A stretch of 22,294 nt of DNA from IMG/VR virus record IMGVR_UViG_3300007735_000486, positions 1 to 22,294 of that record; one strand, written 5' to 3'. The translations under genes and the position numbers were made by a program. The notes beneath the pieces were generated by a model. The model saw only the letters and a list, made by a program, of their open reading frames with translations. It was not told where the DNA came from and made no database searches. Source of the stretch: a virus. Below are positions 12,373 to 20,891 of this stretch, piece by piece; positions within the stretch are counted from its first letter, which is position 1; each line of letters opens with the position of its first letter.

Positions 12373-12388
12373 TCAAGGAGTGACAATA

Positions 12389-13915
12389 ATGGCTTCTATT
12401 TCAACCCGCAGTTCCGTTCTGGCAATCAAAGAAGAAGTCACCGAAGGGACGCCGGTTGTCCCTACGTCAGCTTCTGACTACGTTGCCCTTCAAGATGACT
12501 TCTCCATGGCTCCGGCAACGGACGTCCTGGATAACGCCGAGCTTAAGAGCTCTATCGCTCCTGGTAAGCCTATCCAAGGGGCAGAAAACCCCACGGCGAG
12601 CTTCAGCCACTACCTGAGAGCATCTGGCACGATAGCCCAGGCGCCTAACTACGGCCTCTTGATGAAGGCTGCTTTCGGTGCGGTTGCTACGGCATCGACC
12701 GAATACGACACGGTTGCGGCTTCTACCACCTCCCTTGTGAAGGTTGATACCGGTGAAGGCGCCACCTTCCAGCGCGGTGAGGCTCTGCTTATTAAGGATG
12801 CAGTATCCTCGTCAGGTAACTACTCCATCCGCTGTATCGACAGCATCGCGTCTGACGACTTGACCATCGGATTCCGCACGGCATCGGCTGTCGGTACGTC
12901 TAAGAACCTTGGTAAGGCTGTGCTCTACTACCCGGTCAACTCGGGGCACCCTAGCCTCAGCCTATGGCACTACCTCGGTAACGGCGGCGCTCTCCAGTGC
13001 ATGTCTGGTGCGCGTGTAACGGATACCTCTATTGAGATCTCGGCAGGGGACCTGATCAATGCCAGCTACTCCCTGGAAGGAACCCAGTTCTACTTCGACC
13101 CCATCACCCTGACTTCTTCTGACACGAAGCTGGACTTCACGGACGACGACGGCACCTTCGCTGCCACCATTGCAGCTAAGACCTACAAGGACCCGCACGA
13201 GCTGGCCCAGGCTATCCAGGATGCCATGAACACGGCTAACGCTGGGGAGACCCACACCGTTACGTATGACGATACGAACGGCAAGTTTACCATCAAGTCA
13301 ACCGGCACCTTGCTCAGTCTTCTGTGGAACACCGGCACTAACGCTGCCAACACCATTGGCGATAAGATCGGGTTCAACACAGCGGCCAACTCCACCGGCA
13401 CTGCTGCAACCACCGGCTATACCTCGGCAAACGCGGTATCTTTTGCTTCTCCTCAAACCCCATCGTTTGACAACGCCGACCCGCTGGCAGCGAAAGACAT
13501 GGAAGTTATGCTTGGGGACACGGCTGACTATCTCTGCTTCCAAGCCTCTTCTGTATCGGTCAGCTTGGCCACGCCGAAGACTAACATCAGCTCGGTTTGC
13601 GCTACGTCCGGGATCTCCGGGTCGATTGTTAACGATCGTAACGCAACGGTTACTATCCAGGCTGTCTTGGATAAGTACGACGCAGCAGACTTCAAGGCTT
13701 ACCGATCCAACAGCAACGTAAAATGCCAGGTCTCCTTCGGCAACAAGTCCGGTGGAAACTGGGTTGCTGGAAAGTGCGGGGCAATCTACATTCCTACAGC
13801 GACAATTACGAGTTTCGAAGTAGTCGACAACGACGGTCTGGCCAACATCTCGATCGAACTGGCTGCCTACGCAGACAGCTCGGGTCAAGGTGAGGTCTAC
13901 GTCAACTTCCTGTAG
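12389..13915 (+). CDS. Major tail tube protein with an inserted domain
   Basis: The tail-tube protein polymerises around the tape measure. The opening SISTRSSVLAIKEEV, then TEGTPVVPTSASDYV, resembles tail-tube families, and a DNAELKSSIAPGKP loop at about 48-61 follows. At 508 residues it is much longer than usual (roughly 150-300). Residues 235-337 form an extra domain starting FDPITLTSSDTKLDF and including AAKTYKDPHELAQAIQDAM, which recurs in the distal-tail protein at 17222. AAGGAG at 12375-12380 precedes ATG 12389 by 8 bases; the longer GTG start at 12380 lies inside that site. The gene is placed between the terminator and the chaperones, as expected. Confidence 0.85.
   Translation: MASISTRSSVLAIKEEVTEGTPVVPTSASDYVALQDDFSMAPATDVLDNAELKSSIAPGKPIQGAENPTASFSHYLRASGTIAQAPNYGLLMKAAFGAVATASTEYDTVAASTTSLVKVDTGEGATFQRGEALLIKDAVSSSGNYSIRCIDSIASDDLTIGFRTASAVGTSKNLGKAVLYYPVNSGHPSLSLWHYLGNGGALQCMSGARVTDTSIEISAGDLINASYSLEGTQFYFDPITLTSSDTKLDFTDDDGTFAATIAAKTYKDPHELAQAIQDAMNTANAGETHTVTYDDTNGKFTIKSTGTLLSLLWNTGTNAANTIGDKIGFNTAANSTGTAATTGYTSANAVSFASPQTPSFDNADPLAAKDMEVMLGDTADYLCFQASSVSVSLATPKTNISSVCATSGISGSIVNDRNATVTIQAVLDKYDAADFKAYRSNSNVKCQVSFGNKSGGNWVAGKCGAIYIPTATITSFEVVDNDGLANISIELAAYADSSGQGEVYVNFL
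13091..13399 (+). other. Inserted domain, copy A (in the tail tube)
   Basis: Encodes residues 235-337 of the tube protein. Its pattern is: strand TKLDFTDDD, strand AATIAAKTY, helix DPHELAQAIQDAMN, strand HTVTYDDTNGKFTI, then LWNTGTNAANTIGDKIGF. The second copy is in the distal-tail protein. It probably projects from the tube surface. Confidence 0.7.
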
Positions 13916-13922
13916 GTGTTAG

Positions 13923-14279
13923 ATGGCTTCTGTTAAGTTTGTACCTTCGGTTTGCAAGGGTGAAAGCCCCTCTTTTGAGGGGTTCGTAACCATGAAAATG
14001 CCTAACTTTGACGAGAAGTATGGGTTTATCGAAGACCTGGACCTTGAGCTAGACGAAGAAGGCAAGGTAGCCATGGGTAATGCTAAGAAAGGTCTTAGCA
14101 TGATCCGCAAGGCTGTTAGAGCCAGCAAGTCTTTCTACCAGCATGTGGAGCTAAAGCACCTGCAATCCGGGAAGACTTTCGGATCTTTTGACGATTTGTC
14201 TAGCGACGATAAGGCTCATGCGATTTTGATCGAGGTAGCAACTGCTCTGATGGCAGGGCTGCCGATGGGAAACGACTAA
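13923..14279 (+). CDS. Tail assembly chaperone G (zero-frame product)
   Basis: The 118-residue protein lies between the tail-tube and tape-measure genes, the fixed place of the G/GT chaperones of siphoviruses, which hold the tape measure and recruit tube protein and are not in the final virion. It has an alpha-rich acidic-basic mix (KKGLSMIRKAVRASKSFYQHVELK). AGGTG at 13914-13918 precedes ATG 13923 by 4 bases. Its second and third last codons form GGGAAAC, with the stop 3 bases after the heptamer. Most ribosomes end here; a minority should shift -1 to make the longer product. Confidence 0.88.
   Translation: MASVKFVPSVCKGESPSFEGFVTMKMPNFDEKYGFIEDLDLELDEEGKVAMGNAKKGLSMIRKAVRASKSFYQHVELKHLQSGKTFGSFDDLSSDDKAHAILIEVATALMAGLPMGND
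14267..14273 (+). promoter_or_regulatory. Programmed -1 ribosomal frameshift site, GGGAAAC
   Basis: In the zero frame the bases read ATG GGA AAC GAC TAA, so the heptamer is G_GGA_AAC, a perfect X_XXY_YYZ slippery sequence with X=G, Y=A and Z=C. Shifting back one base gives GGG AAA CGA CTA AAA, which stays open for 79 codons. I see only a weak GGAC/GTCC pairing (14292-14295 with 14305-14308) downstream, so a stimulating structure is not established. Confidence 0.9.
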
Positions 14280-14512
14280 AAGCCGCTCTCAGGACGCAGG
14301 TTCGGTCCGCCTATAACGGTGGGAAATTGCAGAATGAGACGGCTTTTTTGCTAGGTGAATACGTTACTCGCAAGCGATTAGCCAAGCTGGGGTATACTAG
14401 CCCTATCGGTCAACTTGATAGCTTCAGGGTAGAGGCTTTCTGTATGATCGATGCTGAGATTGAAGACCTATCTTCAAGGGAGATGAAGAAGGCTAATGGC
14501 AAACGAAAATGA
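14273..14512 (+). CDS. Tail assembly chaperone T extension, made as a G-T frameshift fusion
   Basis: The -1 frame is open from the slippery site to a stop at 14510-14512 and adds 79 residues to the first 117 of G, giving a fusion of about 196 residues. The extension is basic and helical: RLKAALRTQVRSAYNGGK, then AFLLGEYVTRKRLAKLGY, EAFCMIDAEIEDL and a Lys-rich end. A frame from TTG 14327 could be mistaken for a separate gene, but it has no ribosome site and the open frame begins upstream. It ends 17 bases inside the tape-measure gene. In lambda the equivalent GT protein is needed for tail assembly. Confidence 0.88.
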   Translation, partial: RLKAALRTQVRSAYNGGKLQNETAFLLGEYVTRKRLAKLGYTSPIGQLDSFRVEAFCMIDAEIEDLSSREMKKANGKRK

Positions 14513-17222
14513 CATACCGTTAAATATTACGGCTGATACCGAGGCCGCCCAGAAAAACCTGGAACAGTTTACCGCTGCCATAACCAAACTGATGGGCAGC
14601 CTAAACCAGTCGATCGATAACGGTATATCCAAGCCCCTAGAGAACGTAGCCAAGAACAGTAAGAAATCTACCGACCAGATCAGTTCGTTCTTCAGCAGCA
14701 TTAAGGTAGCAGCAGCGGCGGCATTTGCCGTGTTTGCCGGTAAAGAGGTGCTTGGGTTCTTCTCTGACGCCATTAAAGAGGGCGCAGAGGCGGATAAGGT
14801 ACTGGAGAAATTCAATTTCACCCTTGCAGCTACCGGGGAATACAGTGCAGAGGCGTCTAAAGGACTCCAGGAATACGCGGCATCTATCCAGCAGTCCACG
14901 ACATTTACGGACGACGCTGTACTAGGCGCTCTTACCCTAGCCAAGACTTTCGGACTGACAAACGACGCGGCTAAAAACCTAGTGGATGCTGCCGTCAACC
15001 TGGCTGCCGTGCAGGGGACAGACCTTGCCACAGCTACCGATAAGCTCCTCAACTCACTGAACGGGCAAGGACGAGCTCTTAAGGACCTTGGACCACAGTT
15101 TGCCAACCTGACTACCGAGCAGCTCAAGGCTGGAGAGGCGGTTAAGCTGGTAGAACGCAGGTTCGGGGACGCAGCCAGAACTCTAACATCTACGTTTGCC
15201 GGGGCTAGTACCCAGGCAAGTAACGCCTTCGGGGAATTCCAGGAGACTGTCGGGAAGATAATCACCAACAGCCCGGATGTGATTAAAGCTATCTCTGCGA
15301 TAGCTAAGATTTTCAATACGTTCTCTGATTCTGTATCCAAGAATGAGTCTGGTTTTTCTAAGTTCCTGTCGTTCCTTATCAAGGCAACGGCAGAAGCTGC
15401 CGATCTTGTGGTGAACAGTTTCGCGATTATTACCACCGGATTCCTGGAACTCGGGAAGGCTATCGGCAAAGGGGCTTCCCTTGTAGAGGCTGCTTTCAAG
15501 GGACTCAGTGGCGACACGAAAGGGGCAAAACTTGCCCTACAGGATTTCGCTGTCGGTGGTAACTCGTTTGTAAGGACGCTAGACGGCGTAGAAATGGCTC
15601 TGGATAAGGCTGCCAAGATAACCAGAGAGACGGCGGATAGTATCGGGGTTGTCGGGGATAAGTCCAAGAAAACAGACGACGCCTTAAAACAGATCAATGC
15701 TACTGCTGATAAGAGCAAAATTGCTTTCGGTAAGCTCCGTGAAGAGGCTTTGAAGTTTGCGGAAGACCTAGCTCTCAGGTCCGCAGACGCTTTCGACAAG
15801 TTGACGCTGCAACGCGCAAAAGATCTCAAGGAGCTGAATAAATTTCTTAAGGACGGAAGCCTTACATATAAAGAGGCTGCTGATGCAAGGGTAAGAATCG
15901 AAAACGATTTCTCTAAGAAGACCCAGGAGATCAGGGACAAGGACCGCAAGGACGCCCAGGCAGCTATCGACAAGTTCAATGACGACTATGCCAAGTCACT
16001 TGAAGATAGAAAAAAGCTGATCGAAGGTGCATTCAAGGATCCGATCCAGGCTGCGATTAATTTCGATACCTCATCTGGTTCAGCTAAACAAGTCGGTGCA
16101 GCTATCGGCCTTGGCATTGTTTCCGAGATGCTGAACGGTGCTAAAGGAGCCCAGAAGATTCTGTCTGCCGGTATTGGGGCCGCTGCCGAAGCTTTCCTTC
16201 CTGGATTTGGCGGGGAAATTGGCCAGCTTGCAGACCAGCTCCTGACCCTTGGCCCTGACGGTGCTAAGGCCATGGTCCGCGAGTTTGTGGACGCCCTGCC
16301 AGATCTGGTTATTAAATTAGCAGATGCTATCCCAGCGGTAGTTGAGGCTCTCGTAGATAGCCTGATTAACAAAGGCGGTGTTGTCCGCATTGCTGTAGCA
16401 CTTGCCAGGGCTATGTCTGGTGAGGCTGTCTGGCGGTCGATCGGTAAGCAGATCGGGACAGAATCAACTGCCGTAATGGTTTCAGGGTTGAGCAATTTCT
16501 TCTCTACCCTTGGTCAAAAAATATCGTCAGCTTTCCAGCAATCTATACCTCTGTTAAGGCAAGGTATTGTCAATGGTATGCTTGCTGGTGTCGGAGGTAT
16601 AACGGTAGCGATTACAAATTCTATTGCTTCCGGAGTTCAATCCGTTGGACCGGTTATTATCAATGCCTTCTCAGAAGCCGCTGGATTGCTACGTTCGGCC
16701 CTTTCTAATTTCCCATCAGATATTGGGGCCGCAATCTCTGGAGCCATCAGAGGTATCAAGTTTAGTACCCAGATCAAATTGAACGTAGAAGGTCTGGTTG
16801 ATGGGATCAAGGACGGCGTCAGGGATGCACTTAGTGATCTTCCTGGTGCAGTTGCTGATGCAATCAAAGGGGCTGTCAGTTTCGGCGGTGGGGGAGGTGG
16901 CGGTGGTGGAATCCTTTCTGGATTAGGTCTTGCCACCGGTGGTCTCGTACCCCCAGGGTACAATAATGATACCTTCCCAGCTCGCCTCAGCTCCGGCGAG
17001 TTGGTTATCCCGAAGGACTTAGTAGGCAGCCTGTCTGATTTCCTTGACGTAGGGTTGTCGCCTAAAAAGGATAACGGGGATCTTAACACGGCTATCCTAG
17101 GCAAGATTGCCGCTCTACTTGGTCAGCCGATGAATGTAGAATCGTCTATCAATATATCGGGACAGGCTTTCGCGGATATTATCCTGAAGCTCTCCCGCAA
17201 TAATGCAAGGTTGACCGCCTAA
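14496..17222 (+). CDS. Tape measure protein
   Basis: The 908-residue product sets tail length and is later ejected to help DNA entry. It is largely helical and Ala/Lys/Glu-rich, with hydrophobic stretches (VAAAAAFAVFAGKEVLGFF near 70-88) and coiled-coil-like regions (about 400-500). Near the end it has a Gly run (797-805) followed by ATGGLVPPGYNNDTFPARL and SSGELVIP (813-839), a common tape-measure C-terminal motif. By the usual ratio of about 0.15 nm per residue this predicts a tail near 135 nm, if unprocessed. AAGAAGG (14486-14492) lies 3 bases before ATG 14496, and the gene overlaps the G-T end by 17 bases and the next start by one base (TAATG). Confidence 0.95.
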   Translation: MANENDIPLNITADTEAAQKNLEQFTAAITKLMGSLNQSIDNGISKPLENVAKNSKKSTDQISSFFSSIKVAAAAAFAVFAGKEVLGFFSDAIKEGAEADKVLEKFNFTLAATGEYSAEASKGLQEYAASIQQSTTFTDDAVLGALTLAKTFGLTNDAAKNLVDAAVNLAAVQGTDLATATDKLLNSLNGQGRALKDLGPQFANLTTEQLKAGEAVKLVERRFGDAARTLTSTFAGASTQASNAFGEFQETVGKIITNSPDVIKAISAIAKIFNTFSDSVSKNESGFSKFLSFLIKATAEAADLVVNSFAIITTGFLELGKAIGKGASLVEAAFKGLSGDTKGAKLALQDFAVGGNSFVRTLDGVEMALDKAAKITRETADSIGVVGDKSKKTDDALKQINATADKSKIAFGKLREEALKFAEDLALRSADAFDKLTLQRAKDLKELNKFLKDGSLTYKEAADARVRIENDFSKKTQEIRDKDRKDAQAAIDKFNDDYAKSLEDRKKLIEGAFKDPIQAAINFDTSSGSAKQVGAAIGLGIVSEMLNGAKGAQKILSAGIGAAAEAFLPGFGGEIGQLADQLLTLGPDGAKAMVREFVDALPDLVIKLADAIPAVVEALVDSLINKGGVVRIAVALARAMSGEAVWRSIGKQIGTESTAVMVSGLSNFFSTLGQKISSAFQQSIPLLRQGIVNGMLAGVGGITVAITNSIASGVQSVGPVIINAFSEAAGLLRSALSNFPSDIGAAISGAIRGIKFSTQIKLNVEGLVDGIKDGVRDALSDLPGAVADAIKGAVSFGGGGGGGGGILSGLGLATGGLVPPGYNNDTFPARLSSGELVIPKDLVGSLSDFLDVGLSPKKDNGDLNTAILGKIAALLGQPMNVESSINISGQAFADIILKLSRNNARLTA

Positions 17223-18334
17223 TGGGAACAGCCAGAATACGCTTCATGTCCAACCAGTATATGAATAGGAATTTCACCTATTCGTCGCAGCAGTCTAGCT
17301 TTCCGGCGTCCAACGTGTATAACACCAGCAGAAGCCGGGTGTGGAAACCGGCAGGGAATTTTGAGATCACCACTGCCAACAACAAGCTGTATATAAACGA
17401 TGGATCAAATAAAACAGTTACTCTTATTGCGGGAAGCTATACGCCAGCAAGTCTGGCATCGCACATTCAAACTCAACTTAACGCTGCTAGCTCTAACTGG
17501 ACTTGCAGCTACGATCTTGTTAGCACTTTTAAATTTACCATAGCCAGATCTTCTGGAACCAATGTCCTGCGGAAGTCTCAGACCACGGATGCTGTATGGG
17601 ATACGATCGGTTTTACCGGTAATACCGACATCAGCACCGACCCTTTCGTAGCTGACGAGCAGAGAAACCATACCTCTGAGTGGGTCAAATGCGACCTTGG
17701 CATCCCGCAACAGGCTACCTTTGTCGGGGTTATCTCTGGTATCGACGAAGTATTCAGCCTGTCCGAGACGGCCACGGTTAAGATCCAGGCCAACAATATC
17801 GACTACTGGGAATCCCCGCCGGTAGATATCACTATCCCGGTAGACGATTCTGGCTGCTTGCGGTTTATCGACACTGAAAACACTGCATCCTATCGCTTCT
17901 GGCGAGTACAGATTGTCGACAGGCTAAATTACCTTGGACCTGAAGGAATTAAGATTGCCTATGTCTATGTTGGCGACCACGTCAGCATGACTACAAGCAA
18001 TATTGCTACCGGATTCCGAAAAGAACTTGTAGACCCGTCAAATGTTCTGCAATCAGAAAACGGTGCTTTATTTTTCGAAACCAGGCCACGCTACCTATCG
18101 TTTAGCAATGCCCAGGTCCAACTACTTTCTGGGTCAGAGCAACGTGAGCTAGAGCAACTCTTCTACGATCTAGGTAAGCGTGAACCGTTCTTCGTATCGA
18201 TTGACCCTGACCTTGAGGTATCCGCAACTCTAGGGGAGCTTACGCGGTTTGTGGTTATGACAAATAACCCGACGTTCGACCATGTAATCCGCAATTACTA
18301 CAATATCAATTTCGACATGAGGGAGGCGTTCTGA
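17222..18334 (+). CDS. Distal tail-like protein with the inserted domain
   Basis: The 370-residue product follows the tape measure, as distal-tail (Dit) proteins do. Its start, MGTARIRFMSNQYM, leads to SSFPASNVYNTSRSRVW, typical of minor tail proteins with an Ig- or lectin-like fold. Residues 47-135 are the same inserted domain as in the tail tube. The remainder is a beta-sandwich (WVKCDLGIPQQATFVGVI, ATVKIQANNIDYW, YRFWRVQIVDRL) like F5/8-type binding folds, and ends in a mixed segment with REPFFVSIDPDLE. It could join the tube end to the hub, with the sandwich touching the host. ATG 17222 overlaps the tape-measure stop. Exact role inferred. Confidence 0.65.
   Translation: MGTARIRFMSNQYMNRNFTYSSQQSSFPASNVYNTSRSRVWKPAGNFEITTANNKLYINDGSNKTVTLIAGSYTPASLASHIQTQLNAASSNWTCSYDLVSTFKFTIARSSGTNVLRKSQTTDAVWDTIGFTGNTDISTDPFVADEQRNHTSEWVKCDLGIPQQATFVGVISGIDEVFSLSETATVKIQANNIDYWESPPVDITIPVDDSGCLRFIDTENTASYRFWRVQIVDRLNYLGPEGIKIAYVYVGDHVSMTTSNIATGFRKELVDPSNVLQSENGALFFETRPRYLSFSNAQVQLLSGSEQRELEQLFYDLGKREPFFVSIDPDLEVSATLGELTRFVVMTNNPTFDHVIRNYYNINFDMREAF
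17360..17626 (+). other. Inserted domain, copy B (in the distal-tail protein)
   Basis: Encodes residues 47-135. Shared positions with copy A include NKLYIND versus TKLDFTD, TLIAGSY versus TIAAKTY, SLASHIQTQLNAA versus ELAQAIQDAMNTA, SYDLVSTFKFTI versus TYDDTNGKFTI, and TIGF versus KIGF. About 30 percent of positions look alike by eye. Confidence 0.7.
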
Positions 18335-18819
18335 TGGCTTTCCTACAATTCCCTCAGCAGCAATATTTCCGAATCGTGAATACTGGGGAAGAGGCCAAGC
18401 TTGGCTACTTCAACCTTGGTGCAGGTACCGAACTCAAGTTTATGATGGTTACCCTGTTCCAGCGTGGGGTAATTGCCAGCCCTTACACGATCAGAATGAA
18501 GATCTACGGTAATGATACCTTAGTGGATCCGATCGTTACGAGTGAGTGGGTAACGCTGTCGGCTGCAACCCTTCTGAACGGGAACGACACGACAGGGACG
18601 ACATACACCAACAACTGGTTTGGTAACGTCTATATCCCGTTCTCAGGTAACCCGCTCAACCCAAACATCAATTACTACATGACCATGGAAACCAGCGGCT
18701 ATACCAGGGTAGGAGATACGTTCTACCTCGGCGTGAACCTGGACTGGTACTCCCCGACTAATACCGCTGTCTCTGCTACCGAAGCTGGTGGGCGGGTGGC
18801 AATTCTAGGTAAACGATGA
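18334..18819 (+). CDS. Small beta-rich tail protein, unknown role
   Basis: A 161-residue protein with strand-rich, Asn/Thr/Tyr-rich sequence (LKFMMVTLFQRGVIASPYTI, YTNNWFGNVYIPFSG, INYYMTMETSG, TFYLGVNLDWYS), which suggests a jelly-roll or lectin-like tail component. A strong GGGAGG site (18321-18326) lies 7 bases before ATG 18334, which overlaps the upstream stop by one base. It sits between the distal-tail-like and hub-like proteins, so it may form part of the tip or a side decoration. I know no named family for it. Confidence 0.62.
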   Translation: MAFLQFPQQQYFRIVNTGEEAKLGYFNLGAGTELKFMMVTLFQRGVIASPYTIRMKIYGNDTLVDPIVTSEWVTLSAATLLNGNDTTGTTYTNNWFGNVYIPFSGNPLNPNINYYMTMETSGYTRVGDTFYLGVNLDWYSPTNTAVSATEAGGRVAILGKR

Positions 18820-20891
18820 GCATATCCACAGAGAAGGTTAAGCTCGCTACCGAAAGGTTCCTGCTCGTCAGGCTTACCCCCGGTAGGTATATCGCACCTG
18901 CCCTGCTGAGTGGATCGACATACCAGCAGACATTCAACTACCCGCTAGCTAAGATAGAGCGCAACGGGGTTGAGATGACAAAAGTTACTACGCTGTCCAG
19001 TAATGACCAGTGGACGCATGATGAGACTACCGGGGCGCTCCAGGTCCGCCTTGCATCGGCACCCAACTCCACCACGAACGTCTTGATAGCATACTACTAC
19101 CTCTTTTATACCGGGACTGTGTTCCGATCCATCTACCAGGACCCGGAAGACACGGCTACGACGGTGCGGGATTGGCAACCAAGGCTACTGAATTACCCCA
19201 TCGTAGGGCAGTCTTTCAGTAATATTATCAACGGCGTGTTTACGATTGCAGATACCAACGTCGATATTATCAACCACGACGCGGATTTTCAGCAGTACCT
19301 GACCGACGACGACAGCTTCTATAACAAGCAAGTCGACATATGGCTCTGTATTGGATCGGTAGAGAACATCCAAAAGATATTCACAGGGACAATCAGCAGA
19401 CTAACCATGACTCAGAGCCGGGTGACTCTGGAGGTTGTGGACAGCTTCAACAAGCTGAAACAGCCTGCATATATGGGGGACACCGTCGATGAGTCAGTAT
19501 TCAGACTTGCTGCCTCTAGCTTTCCTAATCTTGACCCTAAACACAATGATGTTCCTTGTCCTTATATTGTGGGGGCTTACTCACGCTACCAAACGAGAAC
19601 CAAAACCGGAGTCCCATCCGGCGCACCGTCAGCCTATGAGGTCTTCGTCGGTACGGAAGCCAGCTGCACAAACTACAGTACGACTACTTCCACGACAACC
19701 AACCGGGAGTGGGGGTGCTGCCGGCAAAAAGGTAGCGTGGCCACCCAAGCTTTCGGAGCTGTTCAAGCAAACTTAGATACCGGTACCGGTTTCCGCTTTG
19801 TGCGGTTTGCTTCTATTGCTAATGTGCAGATTGGCGACACGATAAAATGGACCGAGGGCGGAACGGATTACTATGGACTCGTTAATTATATCGGGGCTTT
19901 CACTTATAGCTCTGTCAACTACAATCTTATTTTTTCTGACCCTTCAGGCCCTTTCTCAAACGCTTCCACCGTCGCCAACCTCAAAAGTTTCGCGGCGTTT
20001 ATTGAAGCTCCAAACGAAACATTAACCTTTGTCCAGCCTAGGTATAGCAGGGACTACACGATCTCTGAGACCACCACTAGCGGTGGGAATAAGTACGTCA
20101 AGATTACCTTCGCCAACAACTTCGAGGCGAGCCATGCAGGGTTTGCCAAGGTGGAGCCGGATAACCAGCGGGTCTATTTCAGGACAAGCAACGCCACGGT
20201 CCAGAAGCATGGAGACATCCTGAAAGAGATCATGGGTAAGGTTGGACTCGCTACCAATGCAGCTACATTTACCCAGGCTGACACGGATCTAGCGGTAAAT
20301 TGCAGGTTTCACATCCCGAACTTTGACGAGCTGGCAGCGGATACCTACCTGAAATACTGCCAGGATGTGCTGGCTAGCAGCCTTGGTTATATGAAAATAA
20401 ACTCCAGTTTCGAGGTTGAATACAACCTGTTGTCTGCCCCGACCTCTACCGATATTCGGGATAACTTCCTGATGATCGATGAGGAGTCAACTTGTCAGGT
20501 GGAGTACCAGGACATCGTTACGAAGGTGATCGCCTATAACCCGCATAATGATTCTGGAGATGCCATTGTTGCTGCCAATACTCCGGCAGCTACAGCGGAA
20601 AACGTGAAAGCAAAATACCTGCATGGTATCGTAAATGTGGACAGGTTCCGCCACGTCCTGGAGGAGCTAACCAGCAAGATTACGGATCATATCGGGGTTA
20701 AGTCTTCTAGATCAGCCAAGTATTTGTTTGCAACGGCTACCCAGGATATCGATACTGAACTTGGGACGGACTTGCAGGTAGAGAACAAGATTCTCCTTGG
20801 CGGGTCCAGTGCAGCTGATGTTAAGGTGATTTCAATTGAAAAATCACCAGCTAAAATATCAATCGTGGCCTCTGACTTAAAAGGATTTTAG
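18816..20891 (+). CDS. Tail hub/baseplate-like protein
   Basis: The 691-residue product overlaps the upstream gene by 4 bases (ATGA). The opening 90 residues are strand-rich (IAPALLSGSTYQQTF), with a YYYLFYTGTVF stretch near 91-101. Residues about 128-230 (GQSFSNIINGVFTIADTN, IFTGTISRLTMTQSRVTLEV) resemble hub domains of the gp27/tail-associated kind. A Ser/Thr-rich, cysteine-bearing section (about 280-310, with ASCTNYS and GCCRQKG) may be an insertion, and the last third is a mixed alpha/beta part with KYCQDVLASSLGYM. Such hubs sit at the tail tip and may bind fibre or peptidoglycan hydrolase. No lysozyme motif is visible. The call rests on order, size and pattern. Confidence 0.65.
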   Translation: MSISTEKVKLATERFLLVRLTPGRYIAPALLSGSTYQQTFNYPLAKIERNGVEMTKVTTLSSNDQWTHDETTGALQVRLASAPNSTTNVLIAYYYLFYTGTVFRSIYQDPEDTATTVRDWQPRLLNYPIVGQSFSNIINGVFTIADTNVDIINHDADFQQYLTDDDSFYNKQVDIWLCIGSVENIQKIFTGTISRLTMTQSRVTLEVVDSFNKLKQPAYMGDTVDESVFRLAASSFPNLDPKHNDVPCPYIVGAYSRYQTRTKTGVPSGAPSAYEVFVGTEASCTNYSTTTSTTTNREWGCCRQKGSVATQAFGAVQANLDTGTGFRFVRFASIANVQIGDTIKWTEGGTDYYGLVNYIGAFTYSSVNYNLIFSDPSGPFSNASTVANLKSFAAFIEAPNETLTFVQPRYSRDYTISETTTSGGNKYVKITFANNFEASHAGFAKVEPDNQRVYFRTSNATVQKHGDILKEIMGKVGLATNAATFTQADTDLAVNCRFHIPNFDELAADTYLKYCQDVLASSLGYMKINSSFEVEYNLLSAPTSTDIRDNFLMIDEESTCQVEYQDIVTKVIAYNPHNDSGDAIVAANTPAATAENVKAKYLHGIVNVDRFRHVLEELTSKITDHIGVKSSRSAKYLFATATQDIDTELGTDLQVENKILLGGSSAADVKVISIEKSPAKISIVASDLKGF

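Follow-up and report, generated by a model that had tools for sequence, protein, structure and literature searches.

A small domain inserted into tail tube and distal-tail-like proteins of a phage recurs in flagellar proteins and giant-virus pentons

The tail tube protein and the distal-tail-like (Dit-like) protein of a virus of bacteria carry one homologous domain, at residues ~236-350 of the former and ~46-149 of the latter. Both are encoded in the stretch of DNA analysed here (the window), the entire 22,294-base IMG/VR virus record IMGVR_UViG_3300007735_000486. The same domain is found in other phage structural proteins, in bacterial flagellar proteins and in pentons of giant viruses. The homology of the copies, their shared predicted fold, their insertion into host folds and the breadth of hosts are established below. 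We consider it probable that the domain is a compact, promiscuous add-on, inserted independently into these hosts and acting as an outward-facing interaction module with many weak contacts; a binding role is thus proposed. In what follows, L-numbers denote loci or stretches gathered in this study, G-numbers denote genomes, and A7, A8 and A9 are alignments or profiles of the domain. The two genes and the parts of their products are:

12389..13915, + strand: major tail tube protein, 508 residues from the ATG, with a possible GTG start at 12380 (open reading frame (ORF); AlphaFold2 model with a predicted local distance difference test score (pLDDT) of 87.9; VIA structure comparison)
12416..13099, + strand: predicted first major tail protein (MTP) domain of the tube, residues ~10-237 (match to the T5 and P74-26 tubes over 5-508)
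13094..13438, + strand: shared inserted domain, tube copy, residues ~236-350 (hidden Markov model (HMM) core 13094-13420; BLASTP; VIA)
13457..13912, + strand: predicted second MTP domain of the tube, residues ~357-508 (single-domain tube proteins align to 357-508 only)
17222..18334, + strand: Dit-like protein, 370 residues (ORF; AlphaFold2 pLDDT 91.1; VIA; PHROG 8610)
17243..17356, + strand: predicted jelly roll part 1, residues ~8-45 (VIA range; alignment with domain-less Dits)
17357..17668, + strand: shared inserted domain, Dit copy, residues ~46-149 (HMM core 17342-17659; absent from the Dits of L025/L119, L030 and L100; VIA)
17669..17986, + strand: predicted jelly roll remainder, residues ~150-255 (VIA range to 252-255)

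The first-pass annotation had proposed, from a comparison by eye, that the two proteins share a domain. BLASTP of tube against Dit returns one alignment, over exactly the segments that it had named, with 34% identity over 91 residues (E=0.002), and the corresponding Smith-Waterman score of 71 is reached by none of 1000 shuffles of the full Dit and by one of 2000 shuffles of the domain. The profile alignment that it had suggested as a check is significant: small profiles built from relatives align with hhalign at E=8.5e-5, and larger tube and Dit sets, collected from IMG/VR, at Prob 99.6 and E=4e-24 over 101 columns. An HMM built from tubes only matches Dit proteins of other phages (8e-14, 1.2e-8 and 2.5e-8) and that of the window (2.5e-7), and a Dit-only HMM matches tubes at 9e-7 and 5e-6. 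The predicted location was correct, while the domain is longer than first drawn (residues 235-337 and 47-135). Of the proposed order of elements, the N/TKL..D strand, the Tyr, the L-A-x-x-I-Q helix, the YD..FTI strand and the IGF turn do align; the '(T)GTN' element does not, since BLASTP pairs the GTN of the Dit with a GTL of the tube and not with the tube's own GTN.

Structure prediction, also proposed in the annotation, gives one fold for both segments. AlphaFold2 models of the full-length proteins (from alignments of 26 tubes and 22 Dits) have block pLDDT values in the domain of mostly 92-97. The domain comprises ~105 residues with the topology strand, strand, helix, strand, strand, short strand and conserved GF turn; by DSSP, both models show two strands, a 15-residue helix and then two or more strands. 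Neither is therefore an immunoglobulin-like (Ig-like, Big) domain in the sense of an all-beta sandwich without a long internal helix. Both models match the same domain of the penton protein of virus EhV-201. The tube copy superposes on 8rbs_K 287-397 (VIA Z 14.7, root-mean-square deviation 1.5 Å over 103 residues) and the Dit copy on 8rbs_K 286-405 (VIA Z 13.3, 2.0 Å over 103 residues). The pairwise match alone is modest and T, S and A abound in the sequences, which is what two unrelated strand-rich segments, alike by convergence or low complexity, might produce. However, the HMM cross-matches down to 8e-14, the profile-profile E of 4e-24, the common penton match and the related Dits that cleanly lack the domain rule out such a chance similarity, to which we give almost no credence.

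The two host proteins differ in fold, as had been claimed. The model of the window tube shows two MTP domains fused to each other, and the shared domain (residues 239-350 in the VIA comparison) fills the linker between them. By VIA, two MTP domains lie in one chain, and the scaffold is the same as in the two-domain tubes of P74-26 (Z 27.3 over 307 residues) and T5 (Z 26.8). Both domains are also present in P74-26, whose tube is smooth on the outside and bears no added domains; a plain linker joins its two domains where the window tube carries the shared domain (PMC10034513). In one related locus (L028 2515-3983) the tube gene is split into two ORFs of 327 and 195 residues by an apparent frameshift within the shared-domain region.

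The Dit-like protein, by contrast, is predicted to be a discoidin/CBM32-like jelly roll interrupted by the shared domain and followed by a C-terminal tail domain. VIA places its jelly roll in the discoidin/CBM32 fold, with residues 10-253 matching a CBM32 domain (4a42; Z 14.2, 2.3 Å over 121 residues). The gene lies directly 3' of the tape measure gene, a position that fits a distal tail protein. In a Foldseek search the Dit model matches tail-tip and baseplate chains of lambda, T1 and diffocin weakly (E about 0.005-0.01), the VIA list being filled by the jelly roll. The insertion is seen most directly in relatives with an empty site. The Dits of L025/L119, L030 and L100 form a continuous jelly roll without the domain and measure 253-265 residues, compared to ~370 here. 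Among 59 gathered Dit sequences, 55 contain the domain, three complete ones lack it and one is a short fragment. A fold search of BFVD further finds proteins of 263-278 residues that align with the Dit model along most of their own length; one of them is from Caulobacter phage Sansa.

The first-pass annotation had suggested that the domain might be a mobile module exchanged between structural genes and had proposed searching for the profile in other gene contexts. For this purpose a DNA pattern was written for the conserved GF-x4-DDTG-x3-YTxD end (alignments A7 and A8 are too diverse for back-translated scans), which found 69 viral and 5 bacterial stretches. Among phages, an HMM locates copies in tube, Dit and hub of one phage (L076), and others occur in the central tail fibre J of L164 (PHROG 31, E 1e-58), in head-tail adaptors (PHROG 442; L160 and L180, also L193), in large hub-like proteins (L132, L161 and L167) and in further tube proteins (PHROG 290, Phage_tube_2). 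The phrog_290, Phage_tube_2 and phrog_442 profiles, which are shorter by about the length of the domain, match these proteins across or beside it. Within tubes the insertion site differs: the inter-domain linker in the window group, a position after the helix of the first MTP domain (L150, L156, L160, L183 and L132), and one after the first strand (L142 and L163). In 6 of 14 other phage records the domain occurs in two or more genes. Because the same domain sits in so many unlike hosts, including the flagellar proteins and pentons described below, and at differing tube sites, the idea of a mobile module is supported. Long Cys-rich repeats of the CQxxCQ type form the end of the hub proteins of L161 and L167 (3209-7336); in these phages hub and Dit alike carry the shared domain.

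The bacterial copies reside in flagellar proteins. Two Desulfobacterales genomes encode tandem copies in FliD (in L187 with FliD_N/FliD_C, E 1e-27 and 1e-49), and one of the two also in FlgL (Flagellin_N/_C). In the Desulfobacterota order sampled, 25 of 146 genomes match, mostly through FlgL-like proteins with one to five copies and also through FliD; FlgK of that order, assigned by its C-terminal sequence, carries the domain as well. In a sample of the Desulfobacterota phylum the count is 25 of 247. The FlgL-like proteins (L205-L227 and others) reach about 1,550 residues, and their one to five tandem copies occupy the place of the variable outer region of the flagellin family. A flagellar-only profile finds its best viral match in the window tube copy (E 1.3e-24), and viral and flagellar profiles align at E 8e-33. 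Between one FliD copy and a phage tube copy the identity is 60%, which may reflect exchange across hosts. In the phylum sample, a domain-bearing ORF of 676 residues (L288, genome G543) holds one in-frame TAG. A contig with tube and Dit relatives of the window phage (L191 and L196) belongs to genome G001, titled Candidatus Dependentiae. The domain was found in none of 85 other sampled Dependentiae genomes and only in this starting genome, so that a binning error or a rare prophage is possible; likewise, in the sampled class of genome G005 only the starting genome has it.

When profile A8 was compared with 177,635 PDB sequences, the two best matches were P1v1 of PBCV-1 (E 1.1e-4) and the EhV-201 penton (E 0.0017); with the broader profile A9, P1v1 is still best (E 0.0021) and EhV-201 is no longer listed. 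The tube model also superposes on P1v1 (8h2i_bG; VIA Z 10.8, 2.2 Å over 104 residues), and fold and sequence together place P1v1 domain I and the EhV-201 penton domain in one family with the phage copies. Residues 80-177 of P1v1 lie within insertion domain I, which builds the spike-holding channel at the unique vertex (PMC9617893), while the EhV-201 penton contains a 538-residue insertion of five small domains (PMC11006232). In both (PDB 8h2i and 8rbs) the same fold is again an insertion into a structural host, but the hosts are capsid pentons with a jelly roll, from eukaryotic viruses, instead of tail proteins. Hokovirus, Catovirus, Klosneuvirus and a MELD virus also contribute putative minor capsid or penton proteins to the BFVD matches; these are leads only, since they are listed without aligned ranges. 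An IMG/VR search with the P1v1 and EhV segments gave no match. No published link between penton insertion domains and either phage tails or flagella came up in the literature search, most subscription papers lying outside its coverage.

No model in Pfam, PHROGs or NCBIfam matches the domain above threshold or convincingly; the matches to PHROG 16568 'Ren-like' (E 0.01) and to SL4P (E 0.18) appear to be fortuitous. One member matches BIg21 at E 0.0028 (cut-off not shown), and no other Big family is listed in the family scans. Three single-copy queries against 50,697 annotated phage records found no match, while a terminase control found 1034 records, and a tblastn search with the tube part and the Dit of the window likewise gave none in annotated phage records. 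The domain could nevertheless be a known family at longer range, namely a variant of the flagellin hook IN motif (PF07196) or of the inserted domain of sheath-like DUF3383 proteins. The IN motif occurs in flagellar proteins, has the same order of elements and, in the FliD of L188, stands at 237-296 just before two copies of the domain. However, it is about half as long, no member has a Flagellin_IN match, and a single hhalign comparison (Prob 7.4%, E 0.0047) indicates no significant homology. As for DUF3383, three members match at E about 0.002, below the cut-off, and one DUF3383 protein yields a 10-bit match over 149-218, but these matches are weak and partial, and no member passes a Pfam cut-off in the result tables. 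Taken together, we regard an origin within either family as unlikely. An inserted stretch in the DUF3383 proteins of L250 and L253 does resemble the domain in its order of elements, with a match of only 10 bits; the 344-residue DUF3383 protein of L252 apparently lacks this stretch.

The annotation had further judged the tube and Dit copies to have diverged long ago. In a tree of 130 copies, which has few columns and many weak forks, the copies group by host gene (20 changes compared to 74 for shuffled labels), and tube and Dit rows part with a single change. Tube-Dit identity is 31.1% within the same phage and 29.9% between phages (permutation p 0.0055). The split in the tree and the near-equal identities indicate that the tube and Dit copies are separate, old lineages, and they lend no support to recent gene conversion between the two genes. 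Recent copying within a genome was also considered for L132 and L160 and rejected; the ~60% identity of their copies is no higher than that to copies of other genomes.

With respect to function, all hosts belong to large assemblies that are extracellular or form a capsid, and the domain appears to have been inserted at linkers or loops of proteins of extracellular assemblies: tubes, Dit-like proteins, hubs, J, head-tail adaptors, FlgL, FliD, FlgK and pentons. In the window phage, the tube copy sits in the linker between the MTP domains and the Dit copy inside the discoidin-like jelly roll at the tip, so that copies would stud the tail over its whole length and once more at the end. Across 54 diverse copies only Tyr33 and Gly90 never vary, which makes an enzyme unlikely. 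Adhesion, through contacts to extracellular polymers or cell surfaces, is the leading candidate role and has roughly an even chance of being correct. Docking or cementing to neighbouring virion proteins would come next, with a somewhat smaller chance, and has a possible precedent by analogy in P1v1, the one member with a described role, that of a docking element. An inert spacer would be the least likely of the three.

Two narrower roles had been suggested at the outset, namely binding of cell-surface sugars and contact between tube and tip. A strict carbohydrate-binding adhesin, having a defined sugar site, would agree with the extracellular assemblies throughout, with a Dit copy embedded in a CBM32/discoidin-like jelly roll and with FlgL tandem arrays that resemble adhesin repeats. 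Yet no carbohydrate-binding family matches the domain itself, the conserved positions are Tyr33 and Gly90 and not a conserved surface patch, and the CBM32 likeness belongs to the Dit's own jelly roll. Sugar binding by the domain is consequently not supported so far, and a strict adhesin appears doubtful. Alternatively, tube and Dit copies might bind each other or stack ring to ring and thereby lock the tail. The two copies nearly always occur together in the phage group (51 loci with both), the 6 of 14 other records with at least two copy-bearing genes point the same way, identity within a phage is slightly higher, and P1v1 domain I makes protein-protein contacts. However, L030, L100 and L119 keep a tube copy without a Dit copy, the identity excess is tiny, and head-tail adaptors, J and flagellar proteins carry the domain without such a partner. 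Many of the proteins that carry the domain never come together in this manner, and a special tube-to-tip contact is therefore not supported so far either; we rate it as improbable, even below the strict adhesin.

Several observations weigh against a promiscuous, outward-facing interaction module. No binding family matches the domain in the family scans. Exposure in the assembled tail fits every host, but is deduced from the host folds. Identity inside and outside the domain is 0.51 compared to 0.48 in tubes and 0.36 compared to 0.33 in Dits; the domain thus does not evolve faster than its scaffold, and a fast-changing receptor-binding role is not favoured. The domain is present in 87 of 89 gathered tube sequences (the other two are fragments), a count that is biased because the search patterns lay partly inside the domain. 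Finally, the EhV-201 coordinates are themselves an AlphaFold model fitted to a map.

Promiscuous decorating domains are known as a kind. T5 pb6 and lambda gpV bear Ig-like (Big_2) decorations that project from the tail surface (PMC8718954), and these work alike in that an extra domain is hung on a tube protein. However, they are C-terminal, whereas the shared domain has another fold, with a helix between strands 2 and 3, and is placed between or inside MTP domains. The major tail protein of YSD1/chi has a domain2 that is also inserted in the tube and, in YSD1, cements neighbouring subunits (PMC8718954). It differs in being a beta-sandwich between alpha1 and beta4, and in the material consulted it is not described in other host proteins. 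The fold and the reach of the domain described here are, as far as seen, new.

The remaining tail block of the window runs, in order, from the tube gene through a 118-residue protein, the tape measure, the Dit-like protein, a 161-residue protein and a 691-residue hub-like protein to the start of a fibre-like protein. Its two other assigned genes are:

14496..17222, + strand: tape measure protein, 908 residues (PHROG 58, E=1.2e-15; Pfam TMP_2 below cut-off)
18816..20891, + strand: hub-like tail protein, 691 residues, without a copy of the shared domain (the relative in L076 has one)

Read by eye, the apparent insertion site in the L076 hub corresponds to about residue 262 of the window hub (about 19600). 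Outside the tail block, one ORF at 538-1728, adjoining the terminase genes, matches ParB-like partition/nuclease and DNA methyltransferase PHROGs.

Promiscuous add-on domains of phages are known mainly as Ig-like folds, and here the fold is a different one. The domain sits at different sites in no fewer than five kinds of structural protein of phages, and it is also found in three flagellar proteins of a single bacterial phylum and in pentons of giant algal viruses. We lean, by a modest degree, towards the view that the domain is an exchange currency among phage tails, flagella and giant-virus vertices, always outward-facing, and a non-Ig analogue of the Ig-like domains. With a named model, tail, flagellar and capsid decorations that now go unrecognised could be annotated. 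Deletion could test the role of the domain directly, since related proteins either have it or cleanly lack it. The domain thus offers a concrete case of parts common to flagella, tailed phages and a different viral realm.

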